Assembly (NCBI GenBank): GCA_946617675.1
Contig: CAMOKH010000097.1
Coordinates: forward strand, 23,611-87,610
Length of the DNA stretch: 64,000 nt
From: an uncultured Prevotellaceae bacterium
Lineage (GTDB): Bacteria > Bacteroidota > Bacteroidia > Bacteroidales > Bacteroidaceae
Reading direction: 5' to 3'
The translations under genes were made by a program, and so were the position numbers. Of this stretch, positions 54,364-63,918 are shown piece after piece (position 1 is the first letter of the stretch; each line of letters begins with the position of its first letter). The notes below the pieces were generated by a model that ran no database searches, had not been told where the DNA came from, and saw only the letters and a program-made list of their open reading frames with translations.

Positions 54364-56166
54364 ATGAAGCATCAGTTACGCAGTGCCGTGTGCACAGAAG
54401 GCCGCCGCATGGCGGGAGCCCGCGCCCTTTGGGTGGCTACGGGCATGAAGCAGGAACAGTTTGGCAAGCCCATCATTGCCATCGTCAATTCGTTTACACA
54501 GTTCGTACCAGGACATACTCATCTGCACGAGATTGGTCAAATCGTACGCGAGGAAATCGAGCGCATGGGCTGCTATGCCGCTGAGTTCAACACCATAGCC
54601 ATCGACGACGGCATCGCCATGGGCCACGACGGCATGCTCTACTCGCTGCCCTCACGCGACATCATTGCCGACTCGGTGGAATACATGGTCAACGCCCACA
54701 AGGCCGACGCCATGATCTGCATCTCGAACTGCGACAAGGTGACGCCAGGCATGCTCATGGCCTCGATGCGTCTGAACATTCCTACCGTCTTCTGCAGCGG
54801 AGGCCCAATGGAGGCCGGACGCTGGCGCGGCGAGAATGCCGACCTGATAACGGCTATGGTGAAGGGTGCCGACCCCACCGTCAGCGACGAGGAACTCAAC
54901 CAGATTGAGCAGTGCGCCTGTCCCGGCTGCGGCTCCTGCTCGGGCATGTTTACGGCCAACTCAATGAACTCGCTGACCGAGGCCATCGGACTGTCGCTGC
55001 CCGGCAACGGCACCATTCTGGCCACCCATACCAACCGTGTAGAACTGTTCCGCCAGGCCGCTCGCCAGGTGGTGAAGAATGCGCTGGCCTACTACGAGCA
55101 GGGCGACGAGAGCGTGCTGCCCCGCTCGATAGCCACCCGCCAGGCTTTCCTCAACGCCATGACGCTCGACATCGCCATGGGCGGATCTACCAACACCGTG
55201 CTCCACCTGCTGGCCGTGGCACAGGAGGCAGGTGTCGACTTCACCATGAGCGACATCGACCGCCTCAGCCGTCAGACGCCCTGCCTCTGCAAGCTGGCTC
55301 CCAACACCCAGAAGTACTCGGTTCAGGAGTGTGGCCGCGCCGGCGGCATACTCGGTATCCTGAACGAGCTGAGCAAAGGCGGCCTGATCGACGGTTCGGC
55401 CCGCCGCGTTGACGGGCTGACGCTGGGCGAGGCCATGCGTAAGTATAGCATCGTCGACGGCGACATCGATGCTGAGGCCAACCGCATCTACCAGAGTGCC
55501 CCCGCCGGACGATTCTCGACGAAGATGGGCTCGCAGTCGGCAGAGTGGGGGACACTCGACACCGACCGCGCCAACGGCTGCATACGCGACATCGCTCACG
55601 CCTACACCAAGGACGGCGGACTGGCCGTGCTCTTCGGCAATATCGCCCAGGACGGCTGCGTCGTCAAGACGGCCGGCGTCGACGAGTCGCTGTGGCACTT
55701 CGAGGGCCCCGCCGTGGTGTTCGATTCTCAGGAGGACGCCTGCGAGGGCATTCTCGGCGGCCGCGTGAAGAGCGGCGACTGCGTGGTCATCACCCACGAA
55801 GGCCCGAAGGGTGGCCCCGGCATGCAGGAGATGCTCTATCCCACCTCGTATATCAAGTCGATGCACTTAGGCAAGGAGTGCGCCCTGATTACCGACGGCC
55901 GCTTCTCGGGCGGCACGAGCGGCCTCTCCATCGGCCACATCTCGCCCGAGGCTGCCAACGGCGGCAACATCGGTAAGGTGAAGGACGGCGACATCATCGT
56001 CATCGACATCCCCTCGCGCACAATCAGCGTGAAGCTCAGCGACGAGGAACTGGCCGTCCGTCCCCAGCAGCCGTTGAAGCGCAACCGCCAGGTGTCGAAG
56101 GCCCTGCGTGCCTACGCCCAAAGCGTCAGCTCGGCCGACAAGGGCGGCGTCCGCGTGATAGAGTAA
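54364..56166 (+). CDS. ilvD: Dihydroxy-acid dehydratase
   Basis: 600 residues from [16 protein letters not shown] (the track start lies before the promoter). Fe-S enzyme of valine, leucine and isoleucine synthesis. Cluster cysteines in [12 protein letters not shown] at about 120 and [17 protein letters not shown] at about 190; late motifs [22 protein letters not shown] and [11 protein letters not shown]. It is alone here, without other ilv genes in the window. Confidence 0.97.
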
Positions 56167-56170
56167 GACC

Positions 56171-56266
56171 AGCCGGGTAACGCGTCTCAACCCACCGGGT
56201 AACGCACCTCAACCCGGCGGGTAACGCCGCTCTACCCGCCGGGTAACGCCGCTCGACCCGCCGCCT
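56171..56266. repeat. 22-nt tandem repeat downstream of ilvD
   Basis: Four copies of (C/A)(G/A)CCGGGTAACGCxxCTCxACC with an exact 22-nt period. It opens a 498-nt gap without gene (56167-56664). Confidence 0.8.
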
Positions 56267-56325
56267 CCGTATCATGAGCAGCCGCCTTAGCTTACTGAAC
56301 CGCCGCCGTCAGAAACAGAGCCACT

Positions 56326-56530
56326 AACCTCCCGTCAGCCCTATAAATCGTTGATATGCAGACGGTTTGTGAATCATCGTCCTCCCGCCAGACCTCCCGT
56401 CAATCTCCCGTCAACCTCCCGCTTGCCTATAAGTGAGGTCCGACGGGACCTCAACGGGAGGTCTCGCCGCCCAACCTCCCGTCGCGTAACCCCTCTGTAC
56501 ATCGGCGTTTCAAGCGAATGCGGGAGGTCA
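56326..56530. repeat. Cluster of direct and inverted CCTCCCGTCA repeats
   Basis: (A)CCTCCCGTCA or CCTCCCGCCA occurs at least six times in direct and GGGAGGT several times in inverted orientation within this non-coding stretch. A multi-branched secondary structure is possible. No ORF character. Confidence 0.55.
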
Positions 56531-56569
56531 GGAGGTTAAAATCAATTGTCTTACACTGAGAAAACTTTT

Positions 56570-56611
56570 CTCCGAATCGCTTGGCGCTTCGGAGTTTTTT
56601 TTGTATCTTTG
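56570..56611 (+). promoter_or_regulatory. Terminator-promoter composite, copy 1
   Basis: Hairpin CTCCGAATCG / CGCTTCGGAG (56570-56594, one mismatch), T8 tract (56595-56602), then TATCTTTG (56604-56611); TTGG at 56581-56584 in the hairpin loop sits at the -33 position. It can terminate incoming transcripts and start the antitoxin transcript. Copy 2 is at 57065-57105. Confidence 0.7.
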
Positions 56612-56664
56612 CACCGTCGCTTAGTCAGCCCACTTGTGGGCGGCGTATAATAATATTGAATGCA

Positions 56665-56907
56665 ATGAATGAAAGAATAACAGAAGGACAAGCTTCAGTT
56701 CTCAACCCTGTACAACTGCATCTATTGAGAATGTTTTCGTACATGAAAAGTGAGGCTCAGTTGAAAGAACTTAAAAAAGTGCTCGCCGAATACTATTTCA
56801 ACGAGGTGGAAAAAGGTATGGCCAACCTTGAAGACCAAGGACTTTGGGGGCGCGAGCAGAGCGATGCGGTAATGAACGAACATTTGCGCACACCATACGA
56901 ATCCTGA
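56665..56907 (+). CDS. Small antitoxin-like protein (partner of PIN-type toxins)
   Basis: 80 residues from MNERITEGQASVLNPVQ; the track start runs upstream into the promoter. All-helical: VQLHLLRMFSYMKSEAQLKELKKVL..., ending NEHLRTPYES. I recognise this as a family usually paired with a PIN-domain ribonuclease toxin in Bacteroidota; that pairing is from memory. Here the partner is reduced to a remnant at 56912-57019. AT-rich relative to ilvD. It may persist as an orphan antitoxin. Confidence 0.7.
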   Translation: MNERITEGQASVLNPVQLHLLRMFSYMKSEAQLKELKKVLAEYYFNEVEKGMANLEDQGLWGREQSDAVMNEHLRTPYES

Positions 56908-56911
56908 ATAC

Positions 56912-57019
56912 ATGAAGCGCATCGTTCTCAACGACAAACATTTCAAACCACTGGACAATATCAGTTTCCCAAAACTGTTCGTACTAAAACTCATGGAGTT
57001 TGTCGAACGGCTAAAATAA
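56912..57019 (+). pseudogene. Remnant of a PIN-domain toxin (C-terminal 35 codons)
   Basis: A 35-residue ORF starting MKRIVLNDKHFKPLDN that begins 4 nt after the antitoxin-like stop. The segment LNDKHFKPLDNISFPKL resembles the C-terminal end of PIN-family toxins (pattern T-x-D-x-H-F-x-x-L-x-x-I-x-F-P), where it would be preceded by about 100 residues carrying the acidic catalytic residues. All of that is missing, while the start codon and frame are intact, consistent with an internal deletion that fused the initiator region to the C-terminus. Too short to be an active RNase. Confidence 0.6.
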
Positions 57020-57064
57020 GAAAAGAAAAGAAAAGACTGATTAACAACAGTTCAAAAATTTTTC

Positions 57065-57105
57065 TCCGAATCGTTTGGCGGTTCGGGGATATTTTTGTAT
57101 CTTTG
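57065..57105 (+). promoter_or_regulatory. Terminator-promoter composite, copy 2
   Basis: Hairpin CTCCGAATCG / CGGTTCGGGG (with G-U pairs), ATATTTTT tract, then TATCTTTG (57098-57105). TTTG at 57074-57077 gives an exact 20-nt spacing. It closely resembles 56570-56611. The transcript it would start contains no long ORF for about 300 nt. Confidence 0.75.
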
Positions 57106-57402
57106 TCGCCGACTCAGGTAGCCCGTAAGGGTGAGCGGGTCGAAACTTAGTGGTAAAAGGACGTTTACGAACGTTATCTTCAGCATCTGAATCTCGCAAA
57201 TTCAAGCACTTGAAGATACGCAACCGAAGCGTCCACTTTGGGTGTATTGTACCCTGTTCATCTTTGAACAGCTTCAATATATCTCGGCGTGGGCTATCGA
57301 GTTGCTTATCCTAGTGCGAGGCAATGCGAGAGCCCAGATGCGGGATAGGCGAAGTAGAGCACCCACGTCTTTACGTTTAACACATTCAATCGCTGAATCG
57401 GG
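57106..57402 (+). ncRNA. Candidate non-coding RNA or long leader upstream of the island operon
   Basis: This 300-nt stretch follows a consensus promoter and precedes the first island ORF. It has no convincing ORF on the plus strand. Short complementary segments are visible (GTAGCCCGTAAGGGTGAGCGGG; TGGGTGTATTGTACCC; CTGTTCATCTTTGAACAG; GCTTATCC...GGGATAGGC). I recall similar sequence in other Bacteroidota intergenic regions, but cannot confirm. It could be a structured RNA, a 5' leader, or a decayed gene. Confidence 0.35.
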
Positions 57403-57621
57403 GTGGCTATAGGCAGACGGTTTATGGCGTATGGCAAACATAATGAAACGACAGAGCATTCTAATCCTACTTCCCATGCCTTAAAAAGCTGTGATAATGA
57501 CAGAAAGGCTTTTGAAGCGCAGCAAGTACAACTTAACAATACGATGAATGCTGTTGAAAACTATATCAAACAACTTGAAATACTAAATACAAACCCTTTT
57601 CAAAATAACAAAGTATTATGA
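57403..57621 (+). CDS. Small hypothetical protein at island start
   Basis: 72 residues if started at 57403 (MAIGRRFMAYGKHNETTEHS...); alternative ATGs at 57424 or at MNAVENYIKQLEIL would give about 65 or 25 residues. The C-terminal half is helical (QVQLNNTMNAVENYIKQLEIL). Its stop overlaps the next ORF (ATGA), which supports translation of at least the C-terminal part. The N-terminal half may be untranslated and belong to the preceding non-coding element. Confidence 0.4.
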   Translation: MAIGRRFMAYGKHNETTEHSNPTSHALKSCDNDRKAFEAQQVQLNNTMNAVENYIKQLEILNTNPFQNNKVL

Positions 57622-57758
57622 ACAAAATAGAGAAGACTTTAGAAGAAAGACGTGCGGAACTCAAGCGTAAATTACCTGAAGGTGGTAACATTTCTCTTAT
57701 AAAGGACAAAGAAAAAGATGGGGATTGTATTCAACTCCCCACTACCATTTATTGTTAA
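57618..57758 (+). CDS. 46-residue ORF with a diverged copy of the E2-protein repeat
   Basis: Too short for the track. It contains ERRAELKRKLPEGGNISL followed by IKDKEKDG, which parallels KRAELKRKLLEGGKITLKKD in the tandem repeats of the next protein. Start overlaps the upstream stop (ATGA); it ends IQLPTTIYC 39 nt before the E2-like gene. Because the core RAELKRKLxEGG is conserved at protein level, it is likely coding. It may be a stand-alone repeat unit, or a 5' fragment of an older version of the E2-like gene. Confidence 0.55.
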   Translation: MNKIEKTLEERRAELKRKLPEGGNISLIKDKEKDGDCIQLPTTIYC

Positions 57759-57797: not shown

Positions 57798-58613
57798 ATG
57801 AATACTATTATCATTCCTCAAGGTCGTTTAGCAGACGATGCTGCCCTTGCAGCAAAACGTGCAGAACTGAAGCGTAAGTTACTCGAAGGTGGTAAAATCA
57901 CTCTTAAAAAAGATGGTAATGCCACAGGTGCTGCTGGTGAAGCATCTACTATCAGCATTCCTCAAGGAAAGCTGGCAGATGACGCAGCTTTGGCAGCAAA
58001 ACGTGCAGAACTGAAGCGCAAGTTGCTTGAAGGAGGTAAAATCACTCTTAAAAAGGATGGAAATGCTACAGGTGCTGCTGGTGAGGCATCTACAATTAGC
58101 ATCCCACAAGGAAAATTGGCAATGCCTCAATGGTACGAACGTGATCCAGAACTACTTGAAGCAGAGAAGATAGCTATGGGGCGTGCATTCAGCAATTTTG
58201 AACTCGGAATACTGGACGATGGCCGCTTGTATTGGCAAGGAACCGTTTCGCCGGGTATATATGAATCCAAATTCGGCGAAAAACGTATCTACCATTTGAT
58301 GGCTGTTTACCAACAGAACCATCCTGAACAGAGAATGGGATCAACAGTATTTGTTTATCCCTTGTTACCTGATGCTGAAGAACTCATGGAAGAATTGCAT
58401 CGAAAGACAGGTCAATACCCTTCTCATATATTAAGAGACTCAAACAATCAGCGATACCTGTGTACTGCGGAATCTTCTGATATAAAAGTTGGCAATACAG
58501 TTACTACTGCTGCATCTGTAATTGGCTGGGCTGTGAAATGGCTTATGGCTTTTGAACTTGTGTTAACAGGAGACCTTCCCGTAGAGAAATTCAATCAACA
58601 TCACGGTATATAG
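57798..58613 (+). CDS. E2/UBC-like protein with two N-terminal 48-residue repeats
   Basis: 271 residues. Residues 4-99 are two 48-residue repeats (ISIPQGKLADDAAL... to ...GAAGEAST) plus the start of a third; the rest is a globular domain I read as a prokaryotic E2 (ubiquitin-conjugating) fold: LYWQGTVSP and YHLMAVY strands, VYPLLPDAEELM, then H...RYLCTAES with the presumptive catalytic Cys222, and the C-terminal helix VKWLMAFELVLTGDLP that resembles the W-x-x-x-(Y/F)-E-x-x-x-x-TG-x-x-P ending of bacterial E2-like proteins. The next genes encode a JAB isopeptidase (1 nt away) and a ThiF/E1-like enzyme, which strongly supports the E2 call. AT-rich, foreign to the chromosome. No separate ubiquitin-like gene is visible. 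Confidence 0.7.
   Translation: MNTIIIPQGRLADDAALAAKRAELKRKLLEGGKITLKKDGNATGAAGEASTISIPQGKLADDAALAAKRAELKRKLLEGGKITLKKDGNATGAAGEASTISIPQGKLAMPQWYERDPELLEAEKIAMGRAFSNFELGILDDGRLYWQGTVSPGIYESKFGEKRIYHLMAVYQQNHPEQRMGSTVFVYPLLPDAEELMEELHRKTGQYPSHILRDSNNQRYLCTAESSDIKVGNTVTTAASVIGWAVKWLMAFELVLTGDLPVEKFNQHHGI
57807..58121 (+). repeat. 144-nt coding tandem repeat (2 full copies plus 27 nt)
   Basis: Unit 1 57807-57950, unit 2 57951-58094, partial unit 3 58095-58121. Units 1 and 2 differ in 19 codons, of which I count 17 synonymous and 2 amino-acid changing, so the protein sequence is being preserved while the DNA drifts. Each unit contains KLLEGG followed by Lys. Confidence 0.9.
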
Positions 58614-58614
58614 T

Positions 58615-59676
58615 ATGGACGGAAATTGCCAAATAGTTGTTTTCTCAGATAAGGCATACAACGCTATTATCAGAGAGACATTTGAGTGGGAACCAGTTGA
58701 GACTGGTGGTATCTTACTCGGCCACATCCTTGACAATGGATGTTGGATAGTCATGGACGTACTTCCTCCCGGATATGGTGAAGGTCGCGAAGGGGACAAC
58801 GTATATCACGAATATGGCTATTTTGAGTACAATCGAAAATTTGTCAACTATCTAGCGAAGTCTGTGGCTGAACAATATGAAATTCCATTGGAGTTGTTGG
58901 GCCTGTGGCATAGACATCCGGGGAGTATGGATCACTTTTCTGGTACTGACGACGGAACAAACGCTACCTTTGCCCAACAAAATCCACAAGGAACTATTTC
59001 AGGCTTAATAAATGTTGATCCTCAACTTAGAATGACTATGTATTATCTATCTCATGCTGATGCAATCAACAGAAGTAGAGGTTCACTTAATTATCAAGAA
59101 GTTCAGATTGAAGTAGGTTCCGACTTGATTCCTGAAGAGTATTTCAGATTGCGCTATTATCGTGGTGAAGAAAAAGACAAACACCCATATCCTCCCCTTC
59201 GTCCAAAGACTACTCGTTTTTCAAGATACAACAACGAGGAAAGTGCTGGACATAGTGATGGAACCGCTGAAGGAAGAAATAACGCAAATAGCACTGTAAG
59301 TGAACTTAATGGAATCCATGTGGTATCCACTACGAAAGGTGAGCAGTTATCTGCAATCTCTGATATTACAGAAGCATTAAAAAAAAACAAAAATCTTCTA
59401 GCTCTTCTAGTAATAGCGATAGTGGTATTCGTTTTATCACTCTTCTCGATTAAGAAATATTATTCGAGATTATTTGAATTCTTTTGTGGGGATAAGCCTT
59501 CTATAGAGAATCCGATACAAAAATCTCTACCTGATGGATCATCTCAAAATGGCTCTGCGTCAGAACAAGAAGACAAAACGAAAGGTGATACCATAGAGAA
59601 GAAAGAGGATAAAGTTTCAGAACCTTCCAAAGATTCAGGGAAGTCTGGAGAGGAAAAAGGTAATTTAAACGTTTGA
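58615..59676 (+). CDS. JAB/JAMM isopeptidase with C-terminal membrane anchor
   Basis: 353 residues. The JAMM zinc site is complete: Glu29 in VETGGILLG, His99-x-His101-Pro in LWHRHPGSM, then Ser109-x-x-Asp112 (FSGTD), an exact HxHPx6SxxD. The catalytic domain spans about 1-185. A Ser/Asn-rich linker follows, then one membrane helix (LLALLVIAIVVFVLSLFSI, about 263-282) and a highly charged tail (EEKGNLNV end). In Ubl systems such enzymes remove or mature the modifier; here the topology puts the protease domain N-terminal to a single helix with no signal peptide, so presumably in the cytoplasm. It is 1 nt from the E2-like gene and 17 nt from the E1-like gene. Confidence 0.88.
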   Translation: MDGNCQIVVFSDKAYNAIIRETFEWEPVETGGILLGHILDNGCWIVMDVLPPGYGEGREGDNVYHEYGYFEYNRKFVNYLAKSVAEQYEIPLELLGLWHRHPGSMDHFSGTDDGTNATFAQQNPQGTISGLINVDPQLRMTMYYLSHADAINRSRGSLNYQEVQIEVGSDLIPEEYFRLRYYRGEEKDKHPYPPLRPKTTRFSRYNNEESAGHSDGTAEGRNNANSTVSELNGIHVVSTTKGEQLSAISDITEALKKNKNLLALLVIAIVVFVLSLFSIKKYYSRLFEFFCGDKPSIENPIQKSLPDGSSQNGSASEQEDKTKGDTIEKKEDKVSEPSKDSGKSGEEKGNLNV

Positions 59677-59693
59677 CTTAAAGCAGATATGAT

Positions 59694-60866
59694 ATGACAA
59701 ATATAAAAATAGATCCTAATCTATTCATGAAGGGAAAAAGGCGCAAACCAACTATTTGTTACCCTGATGGAATTAAAAATGAATACTCCACATTATGGGG
59801 TTACTATATAGAAGAAAGTAATTACTACAACATTGTTGGAGTAAATCATGCTCCTGAAGGTCTTGGTGGTATCACTCCTAAATGTGTGGGCCACTTCTAT
59901 CCCAATAGACCGACTGAAGTCAATGATGATTTGATTTATGGCTATTACGAAGGTGATGAGGTGGTGTTCTATGACCTTTCCGGTACGCTGTGTGAACTTG
60001 AACCAGTAAGGTTGAAGATGGATATATTCTCAAGAAACACAGGCATCTTGGAATCAGACATAATGTTGAAGAAAGGTGCTATTATCCTTGGATGTGGCTC
60101 CGTCGGCAGTCTTGTCGCCTTAGAGCTGGCCCGTGCAGGTGTGGGACGATTTTTCTTAATTGATATGGATATTTTAGGATATCACAATATCTGTCGGCAT
60201 CAATGCGGTATCCAGGATGTAGGAAAATACAAGACTACTGCCATTAAGGAACGTATTCTTCAGATTAACCCGACTGCTCAAGTCATAACGGAACACAATA
60301 GGATTCAAGAAGTACCGCTTGACAAAATAGCACCATTCTGTAACAGTGATACGATTATAGTGGGGTGTGCAGACAACAGGGAGGGCGATCTCTATGCTGA
60401 TACAATTCTTGGCAAGCCCTATAAGATGCCTTTTATCTCCATTGGCTGTTGGGAGCGAGCTTTTGCTGGAGAAATTTTCTACTGTTTGCCAGAAGGTATG
60501 CCCGCCTATTCTGATTTTATAGATGCATTAGGTGAATCTTCTGGGCGAGTAAATGCCAATACTCATTTGTATATGGGTGAAGTGGGTACATTCGAGCCGG
60601 GTATATCTGTTGATATCAATTTCGTCACCACTATAGCGATCAAAATGATATTGGATTTGTTAAACCGTGATAATGAACACTATACGCAACGATTGATACA
60701 CAATCTTAGCCAATATACACTAATCTGCAATACAAACAATCCAAAGATTGGAGGTGAGATGGCTGAAATATTTTCTTACCCACTTCAGGTTACAACGAGT
60801 ATAGAGGTTGAATATGCTCAAAAAGAAGATGAACGAGAGTCAAAACATGAAGAAATGTCTCAATGA
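59694..60866 (+). CDS. ThiF/E1-like ubiquitin-activating-type enzyme
   Basis: 390 residues. The N-terminal 125 residues form a separate domain that I do not recognise (GLGGITPKCVGHFYPN could be a degenerate JAB-like fold). The Rossmann E1 core follows: ILGCGSVGSLVALELARAG (about 130), FLIDMDILGYHNICRHQ with the conserved D and N-x-x-R, DVGKYKTTA with the adenylation Lys, INPTAQVI, and VGCADNREGD. A candidate thioester Cys is in SIGCWERAF (about 251). It would adenylate a Ubl C-terminus and pass it to the E2-like protein. It overlaps the next gene by ATGA. No cyclase (CD-NTase) is in the window. Confidence 0.85.
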   Translation: MTNIKIDPNLFMKGKRRKPTICYPDGIKNEYSTLWGYYIEESNYYNIVGVNHAPEGLGGITPKCVGHFYPNRPTEVNDDLIYGYYEGDEVVFYDLSGTLCELEPVRLKMDIFSRNTGILESDIMLKKGAIILGCGSVGSLVALELARAGVGRFFLIDMDILGYHNICRHQCGIQDVGKYKTTAIKERILQINPTAQVITEHNRIQEVPLDKIAPFCNSDTIIVGCADNREGDLYADTILGKPYKMPFISIGCWERAFAGEIFYCLPEGMPAYSDFIDALGESSGRVNANTHLYMGEVGTFEPGISVDINFVTTIAIKMILDLLNRDNEHYTQRLIHNLSQYTLICNTNNPKIGGEMAEIFSYPLQVTTSIEVEYAQKEDERESKHEEMSQ

Positions 60867-61363
60867 ACAGGTATCATGTAAAAATAGAGGAATCGATTCT
60901 GCCTGAAACCTACTCTTTTGACGAGTTGATAGAGAATGGACTCTTAGATGAAAGAGACGAACATATTCAGGTAAGGCTTATGGGGGAAAGCGATTGGGTA
61001 ATTGCTCGTGATTATCCATTCTCAGCCTCAGAAGCTCCACCCTTAAGTACTAATCGTAATATAGGAAACATATCTGGAAATTATACAATTAACGACGATG
61101 GGTCGATTAACAGACCCGGAAACTATGACAGGCCGCCCAAGCCGGACAGCAATCTTATCTGGTCTATTATTTGTATCTCAGTATGTCTGCCTTTTGGATT
61201 GCTCGCGTTGGTGGAGTCTGTCAAAGTAGATTCTCTGTATTCCAATGGGGAATACGATGCAGCTATAAGAGCATCAGAAAACTCAAAGAAATGGTCAATG
61301 TGGTGTCTGTGGTCTTGGCTCATTATATTGGGAATAATCTTTATTGCGGCAATAGCAAATTAA
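60863..61363 (+). CDS. GYF_2-like plus CD225/dispanin membrane protein
   Basis: 166 residues. Residues 1-58: a GYF_2-like domain (YHVKIEESILPETYSFDELI, GLLDERDEHIQVRLMGESDW in parts) shared with the proteins at 62057 and 62511. Linker with YTINDDGSINRPG. Residues about 90-166: a CD225/dispanin domain (DSNLIWSIICISVCLPFGLLALVESVKV, then VDSLYSNGEYDAA and KKWSMWCLWSW) with two membrane segments, related to eukaryotic IFITM. Coupled to the E1-like gene by ATGA, so it is part of the same system. Confidence 0.8.
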   Translation: MNRYHVKIEESILPETYSFDELIENGLLDERDEHIQVRLMGESDWVIARDYPFSASEAPPLSTNRNIGNISGNYTINDDGSINRPGNYDRPPKPDSNLIWSIICISVCLPFGLLALVESVKVDSLYSNGEYDAAIRASENSKKWSMWCLWSWLIILGIIFIAAIAN

Positions 61364-61399
61364 ATATATTTATATTAACACTTTAAAACATCAGTTACA

Positions 61400-61648
61400 A
61401 TGGGAAATCAAAACAAACCTGACAACAACATGCTTTGGGCAATCCTTAGCACTCTGTTCTGTTGCCTTCCGTTAGGCATCGTGTCAATTATCAATGCAGC
61501 TAAAGTCGACGGGCTTTATAGAGCTGGTGATTATCAAGGAGCACAAGATGCTGCCGACAATGCAAAGAAATATGCTCAGTATGGTGCTGTGTGTGGCTTG
61601 ATTGTGTTTGTCATCTACTTCTTTATTGGAATGGCAGGAGCAATGTAA
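61400..61648 (+). CDS. CD225/dispanin-domain membrane protein (minimal)
   Basis: 82 residues consisting of the dispanin domain alone: NMLWAILSTLFCCLPLGIVSIINAAKV, VDGLYRAGDYQGAQDAADNAKKY, then a second membrane helix (GLIVFVIYFFIGMAG). It has the paired cysteines FCCLP that in IFITM proteins are palmitoylated; whether that happens here is unknown. It lies 36 nt after the GYF-dispanin gene. Confidence 0.85.
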   Translation: MGNQNKPDNNMLWAILSTLFCCLPLGIVSIINAAKVDGLYRAGDYQGAQDAADNAKKYAQYGAVCGLIVFVIYFFIGMAGAM

Positions 61649-61660
61649 AAAGTTTGAGCA

Positions 61661-62047
61661 ATGGTTAGTGTTGACAAGATAATGCCGTATGTGTTCCCAT
61701 TAGTAATAGCGGGGGTGTTCATATTGTATTATCTTGTCAATCCATTGCAATCGACCTTTCCAATTCAGTGTCCTTGGCATCTATTAACAGGTACACAATG
61801 TCCTGCATGTGGATTTCAAAGGGCACTTTACTCTCTGTTGCATGGTAATTTTCTTGATGCTCTAAGTTATAATTATTTCTTTATATTCTCTATTCCTTAT
61901 GCCTTCTTAGCAATTGTTGCAACTTGGTATAACTACCATCATGTGTTCGACGGGTTACGTACTTTTGTATATCACCGCCTTACTTTACAGACATATATAG
62001 TGTTGTACTTTGGATGGTGGATTATAAGGAACTTGTACAATATCTAA
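61661..62047 (+). CDS. DUF2752 membrane protein
   Basis: 128 residues. Diagnostic DUF2752 block CPWHLLTGTQCPACGFQRAL at about 37-56, with membrane helices before it (YVFPLVIAGVFILYYLV) and after it (YFFIFSIPYAFLAIVATW, TYIVLYFGWWIIRNL). The family is common in Bacteroidota and is often next to dispanins; its function is unknown. The CPxCG could bind metal or form a disulphide. 12 nt after the dispanin gene. Confidence 0.88.
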   Translation: MVSVDKIMPYVFPLVIAGVFILYYLVNPLQSTFPIQCPWHLLTGTQCPACGFQRALYSLLHGNFLDALSYNYFFIFSIPYAFLAIVATWYNYHHVFDGLRTFVYHRLTLQTYIVLYFGWWIIRNLYNI

Positions 62048-62056
62048 CAATGCCTT

Positions 62057-62497
62057 ATGAAGAAATATCAAGTAATGATTGAAGGAGAGATAGCATCACA
62101 AACATTCACACTCGACGAGATGCTTGAATTAGGTTTGTTGGATGATTACGATGAGAATATAAAGATAAAACTCTATGAGGAATTCGTATGGCAGGTTGCA
62201 CGTGATTATCCATTCCATATCTCCGAAGCTAATTCTTCGGGTTCCAGTTTTGTTGTAAACAATGATGGTACCGTTACCCGAAAGAAAAATAACAAGAACA
62301 ATAGAGGATACACAATTGACGAATATGGACAGATTAAAAGGAGAGGAAATAGTACACAAGTTGAATCGTCTACAGATACGAATAACACAACAGTTTCAGG
62401 GACTTCTCAATCTAACACGAGTGGCAATGATAAAAGCGGATGTATTTGGGCTGTTATTATTGCTATAGGAATAATGGTGCTAGCAGCAATTTTATAA
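62057..62497 (+). CDS. GYF_2-like domain protein with C-terminal membrane anchor
   Basis: 146 residues. The N-terminal GYF_2-like domain (YQVMIEGEIASQTFTLDEML...FVWQVARDYPF) is followed by two copies of the motif (F/Y)(V/T)(V/I)(N/D)xxGx(V/I)xR: FVVNNDGTVTRKK and YTIDEYGQIKRRG. Then a Ser/Thr/Asn-rich linker and one C-terminal helix (CIWAVIIAIGIMVLAAIL), i.e. a tail anchor with cytoplasmic N-domain. Part of the island operon; gap 9 nt upstream, 13 nt downstream. Confidence 0.75.
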   Translation: MKKYQVMIEGEIASQTFTLDEMLELGLLDDYDENIKIKLYEEFVWQVARDYPFHISEANSSGSSFVVNNDGTVTRKKNNKNNRGYTIDEYGQIKRRGNSTQVESSTDTNNTTVSGTSQSNTSGNDKSGCIWAVIIAIGIMVLAAIL

Positions 62498-62510
62498 AAA
62501 GCAAATTAAT

Positions 62511-63149
62511 ATGCCGAATAAATATCAAGTAAAAATTGAAGAAACCATCCTGCCTCAGTTATATACATTTGATCAGCTGATTGACGCAGGATTGTTAGAT
62601 GAGGTTGATGAGAATATTAAGGTGAGGCTTATTGGAGATTCAACTTGGGTTACTGCACGAAGTTTTCCTTTCTCAGATTCAGAAAGCAATCAAGCAAACA
62701 ACTGTGTTTCAGCAAGTAAAAGTAAGAGAGAGGCATTTGCACATGTAAGAACGACCACCATCTATAATGAAACTATGGAGCAATCCCCCAATCAAGCATC
62801 TATATCTAACATATCACAACTTCAACAAGAATATCCTCCTATTATTGAAGTTTGGAACTGGGGGGCTTTTAGCCTTTCTTGGATTTGGGGTGTCTTTAAT
62901 GGCTTGTATTGGCCATTAATTATAATTGTAATTAACTTTATTCCATACGTTGGCGTGATAATCTCACTTTGTATCTGTGTACTTTTGGGAAAGAATGGCA
63001 ACCTCTATGCATGGAGAAAGGCAAGGCAGAAAGGGGATACTGTAGAACATTTCACTTTTATCCAGTCTAAGTGGAATACTGCTGGGCAGATAGGAGTAGT
63101 TGTTTTTCTGCTTCTCCTTTTGGTACTACTAATGATTTACGCGTTGTAA
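62511..63149 (+). CDS. GYF_2-like domain fused to a multi-helix membrane domain (DUF2628-like)
   Basis: 212 residues. The N-terminal domain is the third copy of the family (YQVKIEETILPQLYTFDQLI...DSTWVTARSFPFS). A linker of about 50 residues precedes a membrane domain with WNWGAFSLSWIWGVFNGLYW, PLIIIVINFIPYVGVIISL, NLYAWRKARQ and a last helix GVVVFLLLLLVLLMIYAL. The WxWGAFxLxWIWG block is typical of DUF2628-like small membrane proteins (recalled, not searched). Ends 1 nt before the BACON gene. Confidence 0.75.
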   Translation: MPNKYQVKIEETILPQLYTFDQLIDAGLLDEVDENIKVRLIGDSTWVTARSFPFSDSESNQANNCVSASKSKREAFAHVRTTTIYNETMEQSPNQASISNISQLQQEYPPIIEVWNWGAFSLSWIWGVFNGLYWPLIIIVINFIPYVGVIISLCICVLLGKNGNLYAWRKARQKGDTVEHFTFIQSKWNTAGQIGVVVFLLLLLVLLMIYAL

Positions 63150-63150
63150 A

Positions 63151-63918
63151 ATGTATACAATAAATGAAGATGGTACTGTAACTAGAAATGCGAGCTCGCA
63201 TAACTCTAGTTCTCCTCAACCTTCTGGAGGTTCTGATGACAACACAGGTTGTTGGGTAACATGTTTCATAGCTGTTGTTATTGGAATTATAGTTTTTGCA
63301 CTAGCAAACAAGAATGATAAATCATCGGGCCACGAAACATCAGAAGGACCTGCTTATGAAGAAGTTGTTGATAGTGTGGTAGAAAACAACAATACTGACA
63401 CATATCTAGATATTTCTGCATCATCAGTTTCGTTCGATGCAGATGGCGGTTTTTATACATTTACAGTAAGTAGTAACTCCACATGGAACATTAGTACCGA
63501 CACATACGATTGGGGACATTTAGCCAGGTCTGGAAATCAGCTGACTCTTAGGGTTGATGCAAATCCTTCGATGGAATCAAGAACAGACTATTTTATATTA
63601 TCCGCAGGAAACGAGACAGCGCGTGTTGACATATCACAAGAAGGTAAGGTTGAAACGTATTTAAATGTGTCACCTTCTGATTTGTATTTTACTTCTTCTG
63701 GGGGAACTCAAACCCTCAATGTTGAAACAAATTCCAATTGGATTATATCTGTTGACACAGATAATTGGGTACATTTGAGCAAGTCTGGAAATCAGCTGAG
63801 TCTCAGAGTTGATGCCAACAATTCTTCTGCTTCACGAACGGATTATTTTTGTATTAAATCAGATGGAATAGAGAGAAGAGTAAACATAACACAGGAAGGT
63901 GTTTCTTCATATCACTAG
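63151..63918 (+). CDS. Membrane-anchored protein with two BACON domains
   Basis: 255 residues. It starts directly with MYTINEDGTVTRN, the same motif that follows the GYF_2-like domain in its neighbours. One membrane helix (CWVTCFIAVVIGIIVFALA, about 32-50) and then two BACON domains: about 85-165 (LDISASSVSFDADGGFYTFTV...) and about 170-252 (LNVSPSDLYFTSSGGTQTLNV...), each ending (D/N)I(S/T)QEG. BACON modules usually bind carbohydrate or mucin at the cell surface in Bacteroidota. With a short N-tail and single helix the BACON part should be periplasmic, so the protein could link the cytoplasmic motif to the envelope. Confidence 0.85.
   Translation: MYTINEDGTVTRNASSHNSSSPQPSGGSDDNTGCWVTCFIAVVIGIIVFALANKNDKSSGHETSEGPAYEEVVDSVVENNNTDTYLDISASSVSFDADGGFYTFTVSSNSTWNISTDTYDWGHLARSGNQLTLRVDANPSMESRTDYFILSAGNETARVDISQEGKVETYLNVSPSDLYFTSSGGTQTLNVETNSNWIISVDTDNWVHLSKSGNQLSLRVDANNSSASRTDYFCIKSDGIERRVNITQEGVSSYH

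Follow-up and report, generated by a model that had tools for sequence, protein, structure and literature searches.

The window, by which we mean the entire 64,000-nucleotide stretch of DNA analyzed here, ends in an operon of nine genes on the plus strand that spans positions 57798 to 63918 and whose open reading frames are separated by -4 to 36 bp. The encoded products are, in order, an E2-like protein, a JAB peptidase, an E1/ThiF enzyme, a GYF-dispanin fusion, a solo dispanin, a DUF2752 protein, two GYF-domain proteins and a membrane protein with BACON domains. The end of the window is also the end of the contig, such that the operon is visible only up to the gene that finishes at 63918. The features that matter for the argument are as follows.

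57403..57621, plus strand: what is probably left of the C-terminal end of a dynamin-like protein (35% identity over 54 residues to its counterpart in locus L010)
57798..58613, plus strand: E2-like protein with N-terminal tandem repeat units, then an E2/UBC-like domain with an invariant Cys222, and a C-terminus ending in HHGI
57834..57977, plus strand: E2 gene, first repeat unit (48 residues), with QGKLA at its end
57978..58121, plus strand: second 48-residue repeat unit of the E2 gene, identical in protein sequence to the first
58615..59676, plus strand: Prok-JAB (JAMM) peptidase with the motif HRHPGSMDHFSGTD and a C-terminal membrane segment (Prok-JAB E 5.6e-8)
59694..60866, plus strand: E1/ThiF-type adenylating enzyme (ThiF E 2e-23), overlapping the GYF-dispanin gene by 4 bp
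60863..61363, plus strand: GYF-dispanin fusion, with an operon-type GYF domain (residues 1-58), the tail motif INDDGSIN and a C-terminal CD225 domain (E 1.3e-16)
61088..61111, plus strand: the tail motif INDDGSIN of the GYF-dispanin, located before the first membrane segment
61400..61648, plus strand: solo dispanin (CD225) of 82 amino acids with an FCC pair and without the tail motif (CD225 over 68/68 positions, E 1.4e-25)
61661..62047, plus strand: DUF2752 membrane protein (E 3.3e-17)
62057..62497, plus strand: GYF-domain protein with two tail motifs (VNNDGTVT and IDEYGQIK) and a C-terminal membrane segment
62511..63149, plus strand: GYF-domain protein with a conserved membrane region common to L009-L012 and L021, without the tail motif
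63151..63918, plus strand: BACON protein with the tail motif INEDGTVT, a membrane segment and then BACON domains (Pfam BACON above cut-off); the final gene before the contig end

A low-GC island carrying an E2-JAB-E1 operon

An earlier note on this DNA had described a solo dispanin, a DUF2752 gene and a GYF-fused dispanin in one tight operon behind E2, JAB and E1 genes, and both the open reading frames and the Pfam matches bear this out. The two dispanins score 89.6 and 60.9 bits against a Pfam cut-off of 27.1 for CD225, and the DUF2752 protein scores 62.7 bits against a cut-off of 27. The identities given to the three enzymes are likewise supported, by the ThiF and Prok-JAB matches listed above and by the PADLOC E2 profiles, which match the product of 57798..58613 with E 7e-8. 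Cys222 of the E2-like protein lies in the context YLCT and is invariant across 12 homologues. A sequence search of the PDB with this protein yielded no relevant match; the leading credible fold matches of its predicted model are UEV/UBC folds, and these are weak (E 0.03). The closest PDB matches of the E1 adenylation domain are TcdA, MccB, Cap2, UBA5 and ThiF.

The GC content is 0.39 inside the operon versus 0.60 for the remaining window. The drop, from about 0.64 to about 0.40, occurs near 56.5-57 kb, and the interval 56500-57500 is probably the left edge of an island acquired horizontally; the genome in which the island resides is 56% complete. Short direct repeats of the type acccgccgggtaacgccgctc are present at 56172-56270, near the GC break, where they sit between the island and a dehydratase gene ending at 56166. 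Directly after the dynamin-like remnant, a 46-residue open reading frame (57618-57758) resembles a single E2 repeat unit. Together, the remnant and this reading frame are probable signs of an upstream module that has been lost.

Relatives of the E1 are scarce. The window's E1 occurs in only one of 301 genomes of the window's family, namely the window's own, and four others have distant ThiF proteins. A tblastn search of plasmids retrieved only distant ThiF proteins, from two Bradyrhizobium plasmids. Viral contigs gave no match to the single E1 sequence, and an alignment-based search of the same collection returned one locus (L139, 44% identical), on a contig that also encodes a phage terminase and portal. 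The operon is rare and was probably acquired horizontally.

The dispanin-DUF2752 cassette elsewhere in Bacteroidales

Two traits mentioned in the earlier note, the small size of the solo dispanin and its FCC pair, are indeed present in this 82-residue protein. A CC pair is found in 56 of the 59 CD225 domains examined (the three that lack it include the window's GYF-fused dispanin), and the FCC pair is therefore ordinary. We rejected both the pair and the size as special features, because both are standard for dispanins.

The pairing with DUF2752 is also common. Among 198 Bacteroidales genomes, 22 encode CD225 and 121 encode DUF2752. Outside the window, DUF2752 stands alongside 20 of 29 dispanins, on the same strand and at most 1.2 kb away, as is the case in 19 of 21 genomes; the window shows this same arrangement, its dispanin gene being followed immediately, on the same strand, by DUF2752. 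A literature search on DUF2752 found no paper. Of 19 dispanin loci read from the family or genus, five (L118, L119, L120, L122 and L123) carry a GYF-dispanin, a solo dispanin and DUF2752 in the same order as the window.

The nearest relatives of the window's pair lie in a similarly free-standing setting. Genes of L124 share 73.6% identity with the window's DUF2752 and 68-72% with its solo dispanin; in L124, three solo dispanins and a DUF2752 gene are flanked by housekeeping genes (a prephenate-dehydrogenase-like gene and a sigma-factor-like gene, both named by eye). A CD225 tree groups the solo dispanin with those of L124 (support 97/91), and places the GYF-fused copy on a long branch whose position is unresolved. 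From these identities and this grouping it follows that at least the solo dispanin and DUF2752 derive from a free-standing lineage. A search of viral contigs with the window's GYF-dispanin gave no match.

We therefore consider it highly probable that a dispanin-DUF2752 cassette, ordinary in Bacteroidales, was captured by the E2-JAB-E1 operon, because the nearest relatives of the pair (about 70-74% identical) stand alone among housekeeping genes, and because dispanin pairs occur elsewhere without the E2-JAB-E1 trio just as trio loci occur elsewhere without a dispanin. No relatives of the window's E1, E2 or JAB were found around 26 dispanin loci of the survey (up to 8 kb on each side), nor was the trio found in the 19 dispanin loci from the family or genus (flanks of about 6 kb). 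An above-cut-off Prok-JAB lies near a dispanin in 0 of 79 other dispanin-bearing genomes, leaving the window's genome alone among 80, with the proviso that the JAB and E1 searches see only proteins that profiles can recognize. The nearest other case (G270) is a sub-threshold match about 10 kb from a dispanin, and the 236-residue frame that holds it is possibly RadC. From the opposite direction, CD225 or DUF2752 is present in 0 of 16 other trio loci, so that a dispanin in a trio operon is a single example, confined to the window's genome. The scan for loci used exact peptide patterns and will miss divergent ones, and some contigs are short.

These counts bear on another reading, in which the dispanin genuinely works together with ubiquitin-like conjugation, acting against viruses as IFITM does and being controlled by tagging. 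Its position in the operon, the 4-bp overlap of the E1 and GYF-dispanin genes and the GYF fusion would all fit such a partnership, as would the report that influenza virus is restricted in human cells made to express IFITM homologues from mycobacteria (PMC4488726). However, the association is seen at one locus only, with no trio beside any other dispanin whose surroundings were read, no qualifying JAB near the dispanins of other genomes and no dispanin among the other trio loci, and we regard the partnership, an argument by analogy, as unlikely.

The idea of a dispanin-ubiquitin connection in the earlier note thus divides in two. What stands is the shared operon, together with the GYF fusion that ties one of the dispanins to it; what finds no support is a general bacterial link. 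Dispanins occur in 87 of the 301 genomes of the window's family (29%), and for this reason mere co-occurrence in a genome is no evidence, although a shared operon does count. That note had also proposed a survey of dispanins near ThiF/JAB genes, in which random placement of the dispanin-DUF2752 pairs would speak against its idea. The result comes close to that outcome: the pairs are common, and in all other cases examined they are located apart from E1/E2/JAB genes. The suggested parallel between IFITM and ubiquitin is, on the available sequences, apparently not general, and the comparison with animal IFITM proteins is a loose one that draws on family membership, on the mycobacterial activity cited above and on a single locus. 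In current data, dispanin-DUF2752 is a common and independent pair whose link to E1/E2/JAB is a one-off capture.

GYF domains, tail motifs and exchangeable cargo at trio loci

The noteworthy part of the locus is the operon that made the capture, which combines a compact E2-JAB-E1 core with exchangeable membrane partners and a common tail motif. We found 14 further trio loci in GTDB genomes (L009-L022; 53-81% identity in the best segment), one more in the same phylum (L116) and one on a contig from a viral collection (L139). The E2-JAB-E1 order is kept in all of these while the other genes vary, and in L017 and L018 one gene is inserted between JAB and E1. The exchangeable cargo includes PrsW proteases, TonB_C, SH3_3, Sel1, Macro-TIR and NACHT proteins, and dynamin-like GTPases with Hsp70; the JAB of L010 itself carries Big_2 domains.

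Several of these neighbors are of the conflict type. A Macro-TIR protein is encoded shortly downstream of E1, in the same gene run, at L020:5420-6520; a NACHT gene lies in or beside L016; and in Bacteroides nordii the genes immediately before the trio encode two dynamin-like GTPases and an Hsp70-like protein (L010:2520-7500). By analogy with such neighbors in related loci (Macro-TIR, NACHT, and dynamins with Hsp70), the role of the operon would probably be defence against phages or rival bacteria. In Bacteroides congonensis, several genes that look to be of the radical SAM/SPASM and MiaB/RimO types are located just downstream of the E1 operon (L022:11894-17133), and a by-eye reading suggests that these enzyme genes are possibly a peptide-modification cluster.

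The GYF domain of the fused dispanin permits a sharper view of how the cassette is joined to the operon. Many ordinary dispanins have an N-terminal GYF_2 domain, and a GYF-dispanin fusion as such is accordingly no more distinctive than the traits discussed above. The GYF domain in the window is 65% and 50% identical to those of the operon's two GYF genes and about 32% identical to the operon GYF domains of L010 and L021, and it matches the GYF_2 domains of ordinary dispanins with E 0.015 at best. By sequence, the fused domain is of the operon's own subtype; we rejected the proposal that it was brought in by ordinary GYF_2-dispanins because of its poor match to their domains. No window protein has a Pfam GYF match, but the GYF-like assignment of the earlier note is probable from profile comparison: the L010 homologue matches GYF_2 in Pfam, and hhalign links the window-type domain to GYF-containing relatives (E 1e-12) and to the GYF_2 domains of other dispanins (E 2e-5), an alignment that shows a likely common GYF ancestry for the two subtypes. 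A fold search with the model of a neighboring GYF gene matched GYF structures weakly, and these were almost alone among the sensible matches.

A second link is the tail motif, approximately [IVF]x[DN][DE]G[ST][IVF][TF]. It occurs in 39 of 85 open reading frames downstream of E1 at trio loci versus 6 of 372 around ordinary dispanins (Fisher p ~2e-26), against an expectation from shuffles of 0.8, with a pattern composed after some of the counted proteins had been seen. Of 40 proteins, 35 have the motif ahead of their first predicted membrane segment, and four have no such segment; the DGS/T tails probably face the cytoplasm. It is found also in the distant L116 and, by reading of the sequence, in L139. 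Within the window it is carried by the GYF-dispanin, the first GYF gene and the BACON protein, and is absent from the solo dispanin, DUF2752 and the second GYF gene.

The GYF-dispanin is thus, by its sequence features, wired into the operon through an operon-type GYF domain and a tail motif that its first membrane segment follows. Neither the domain nor the motif is present in the solo dispanin or DUF2752, and these two therefore may simply have come along. One could extend this last point to the entire cassette and view it as a passenger, a dispanin-DUF2752 pair that landed in the operon and is co-transcribed with no functional coupling. The pair is common, independent and here in its standard order, and two of its members are missing the operon's tail motif, as a passenger might be. 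Yet a pure landing would have retained the usual GYF_2, whereas the first dispanin has a GYF domain of the operon subtype, accompanied by the motif. We judge the passenger reading to be improbable, albeit a stronger contender than the antiviral partnership. Our preferred explanation as a whole, in which the cassette was captured by a mobile, membrane-linked conjugation operon and wired to it, carries a probability of roughly one half.

Another possibility is suggested by genes that accompany some of the trios. A GYF_2-FtsK/SpoIIIE ATPase, followed by WXG100-like genes, is encoded upstream of the trio in L013:1030-4875, L015:1428-5252 (a record labelled Clostridiales) and L019:2505-6879. In L016 the contig starts partway through an FtsK gene (L016:73-2164), L014:2341-6187 holds a homologous-looking 1087-aa gene whose identity as the ATPase is judged by likeness in length and start only, and in L139 an FtsK gene and a WXG100-like gene with a weaker match lie downstream. 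These arrangements would fit a trio that serves a type VII-like machine for export or envelope assembly, with the dispanin cassette of the window replacing the export part. Against this, the WXG100 matches all fall below the Pfam cut-off, and the FtsK/WXG100 genes are absent from the other trio loci with readable upstream sequence. The window's genome as assembled (56% complete) yields one weak FtsK match only, an 823-aa frame that we take to be the cell-division FtsK, and no WXG100. The export-machine reading is the least probable of those considered. The FtsK/WXG100 version of the locus is a possible type VII-like machine in Bacteroidota. A review describes type VII secretion for Bacillota and Actinomycetota (PMC11217815), and the FtsK and WXG100-like genes at these loci occur in a phylum for which the literature consulted gives no such secretion.

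E2 repeat units, a proposed mechanism and known systems

The two repeat units at the start of the E2 gene differ at 20 of 144 nucleotides, and all of these differences are synonymous. Units of the E2 gene differ at 11 nucleotides in L015 and at 4 in L022, again with the protein unchanged, and between loci the units diverge strongly. Across loci the E2 starts with one or two units of 45-52 residues, each with a GKLA end; in L010, where the frame is broken, there are apparently three. L139 instead encodes the unit on its own, as a 63-residue gene with a GKLA end (L139:6434-6625) directly upstream of the E2 gene. Identical protein units with synonymous differences are the pattern of polyubiquitin genes, and the E2 repeat units are, to judge by their codons, under a polyubiquitin-like constraint.

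This pattern makes the units a candidate for the modifier of the system, encoded as a polyubiquitin-like precursor that would be cut by JAB, activated by E1 and put on membrane proteins with GYF domains or DGS tails, the dispanin included. For other systems, Kaur et al. (2020; PMC7159879) have proposed that a Ubl-E2 protein is coupled with a JAB able to free the Ubl. The unit is modelled, with low confidence, as one helix and two strands and with no beta-grasp, and the candidate would differ from ubiquitin in both length and predicted fold. No ubiquitin-like gene or beta-grasp modifier was recognized in the operon by Pfam/NCBIfam profiles, which a highly diverged gene would escape. We regard the modifier proposal as a lead of low probability; if correct, the units would constitute a ubiquitin-like tag of a new kind. 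In a membrane cargo protein of L019 (11414-12067), a repeat segment of the E2 type (EDAAAKKRRELKERL) occurs together with the tail motif, which links the two modules.

Taken together, the components suggest a tentative functional chain. E1 would activate a modifier, and E2 would transfer it to the operon's membrane proteins, docking via GYF domains or DGS/T tails. The membrane-anchored JAB would remove the modifier. The dispanin-DUF2752 pair would be the membrane-embedded output of this switch and would make a membrane change under its control. The function given here to the dispanin in this operon is one that we infer, and the chain as a whole is a proposal to which we give clearly less than even odds.

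Comparison with known systems places the operon among several familiar arrangements. Like type VII secretion systems, with their FtsK/EssC ATPase and WXG100 proteins, some relatives of the operon encode FtsK/SpoIIIE and WXG100-like proteins, but in these relatives the ATPase bears a GYF_2 domain and the E2-JAB-E1 set is complete, and the machine is absent in the window. To our knowledge, type II CBASS needs no separate modifier. The window shares with the Cap2/Cap3 proteins of that system a related E1 adenylation domain (Cap2 chains are among the PDB matches) and the E2 and JAB profiles. Unlike the E1-E2 fusion Cap2, however, its E1 and E2 are separate genes, and no CD-NTase was seen among the operon's proteins.

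The BilABCD anti-phage operon is similar in that E1, E2 and JAB genes are located together in one operon. It differs in that the window has no recognized ubiquitin-like BilA and has many membrane cargo genes, and in that Cys222 of the window's E2, in YLCT, is not followed by the Glu and the His pair that complete CEHH, the motif that BilB is described as having (PMC11354881). The Ubl-conjugation conflict systems (PMC7159879) also join E1, JAB and E2 to conflict-type modules, and include an E2 whose N-terminus is fused to a module that JAB could set free; they have Ubl, RING E3 and vWA-MoxR-FtsH parts, none of which was seen at the window's operon.

On the dispanin side, the solo protein conforms to the CD225/dispanin family (PF04505, which includes animal IFITM) in its full-length CD225 domain, its CC pair and its form as a small membrane protein with two segments, whereas the other copy in the window is fused to an operon-specific GYF domain. 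The standard Bacteroidales cassette of the five loci named above has the same three genes in that order and at similar sizes, but has no E2/JAB/E1 within about 6 kb and carries an ordinary GYF_2 as its fused domain. Set beside these systems, the E2-JAB-E1 operon with exchangeable membrane cargo looks to be a new variant of the bacterial ubiquitin-like conjugation systems.
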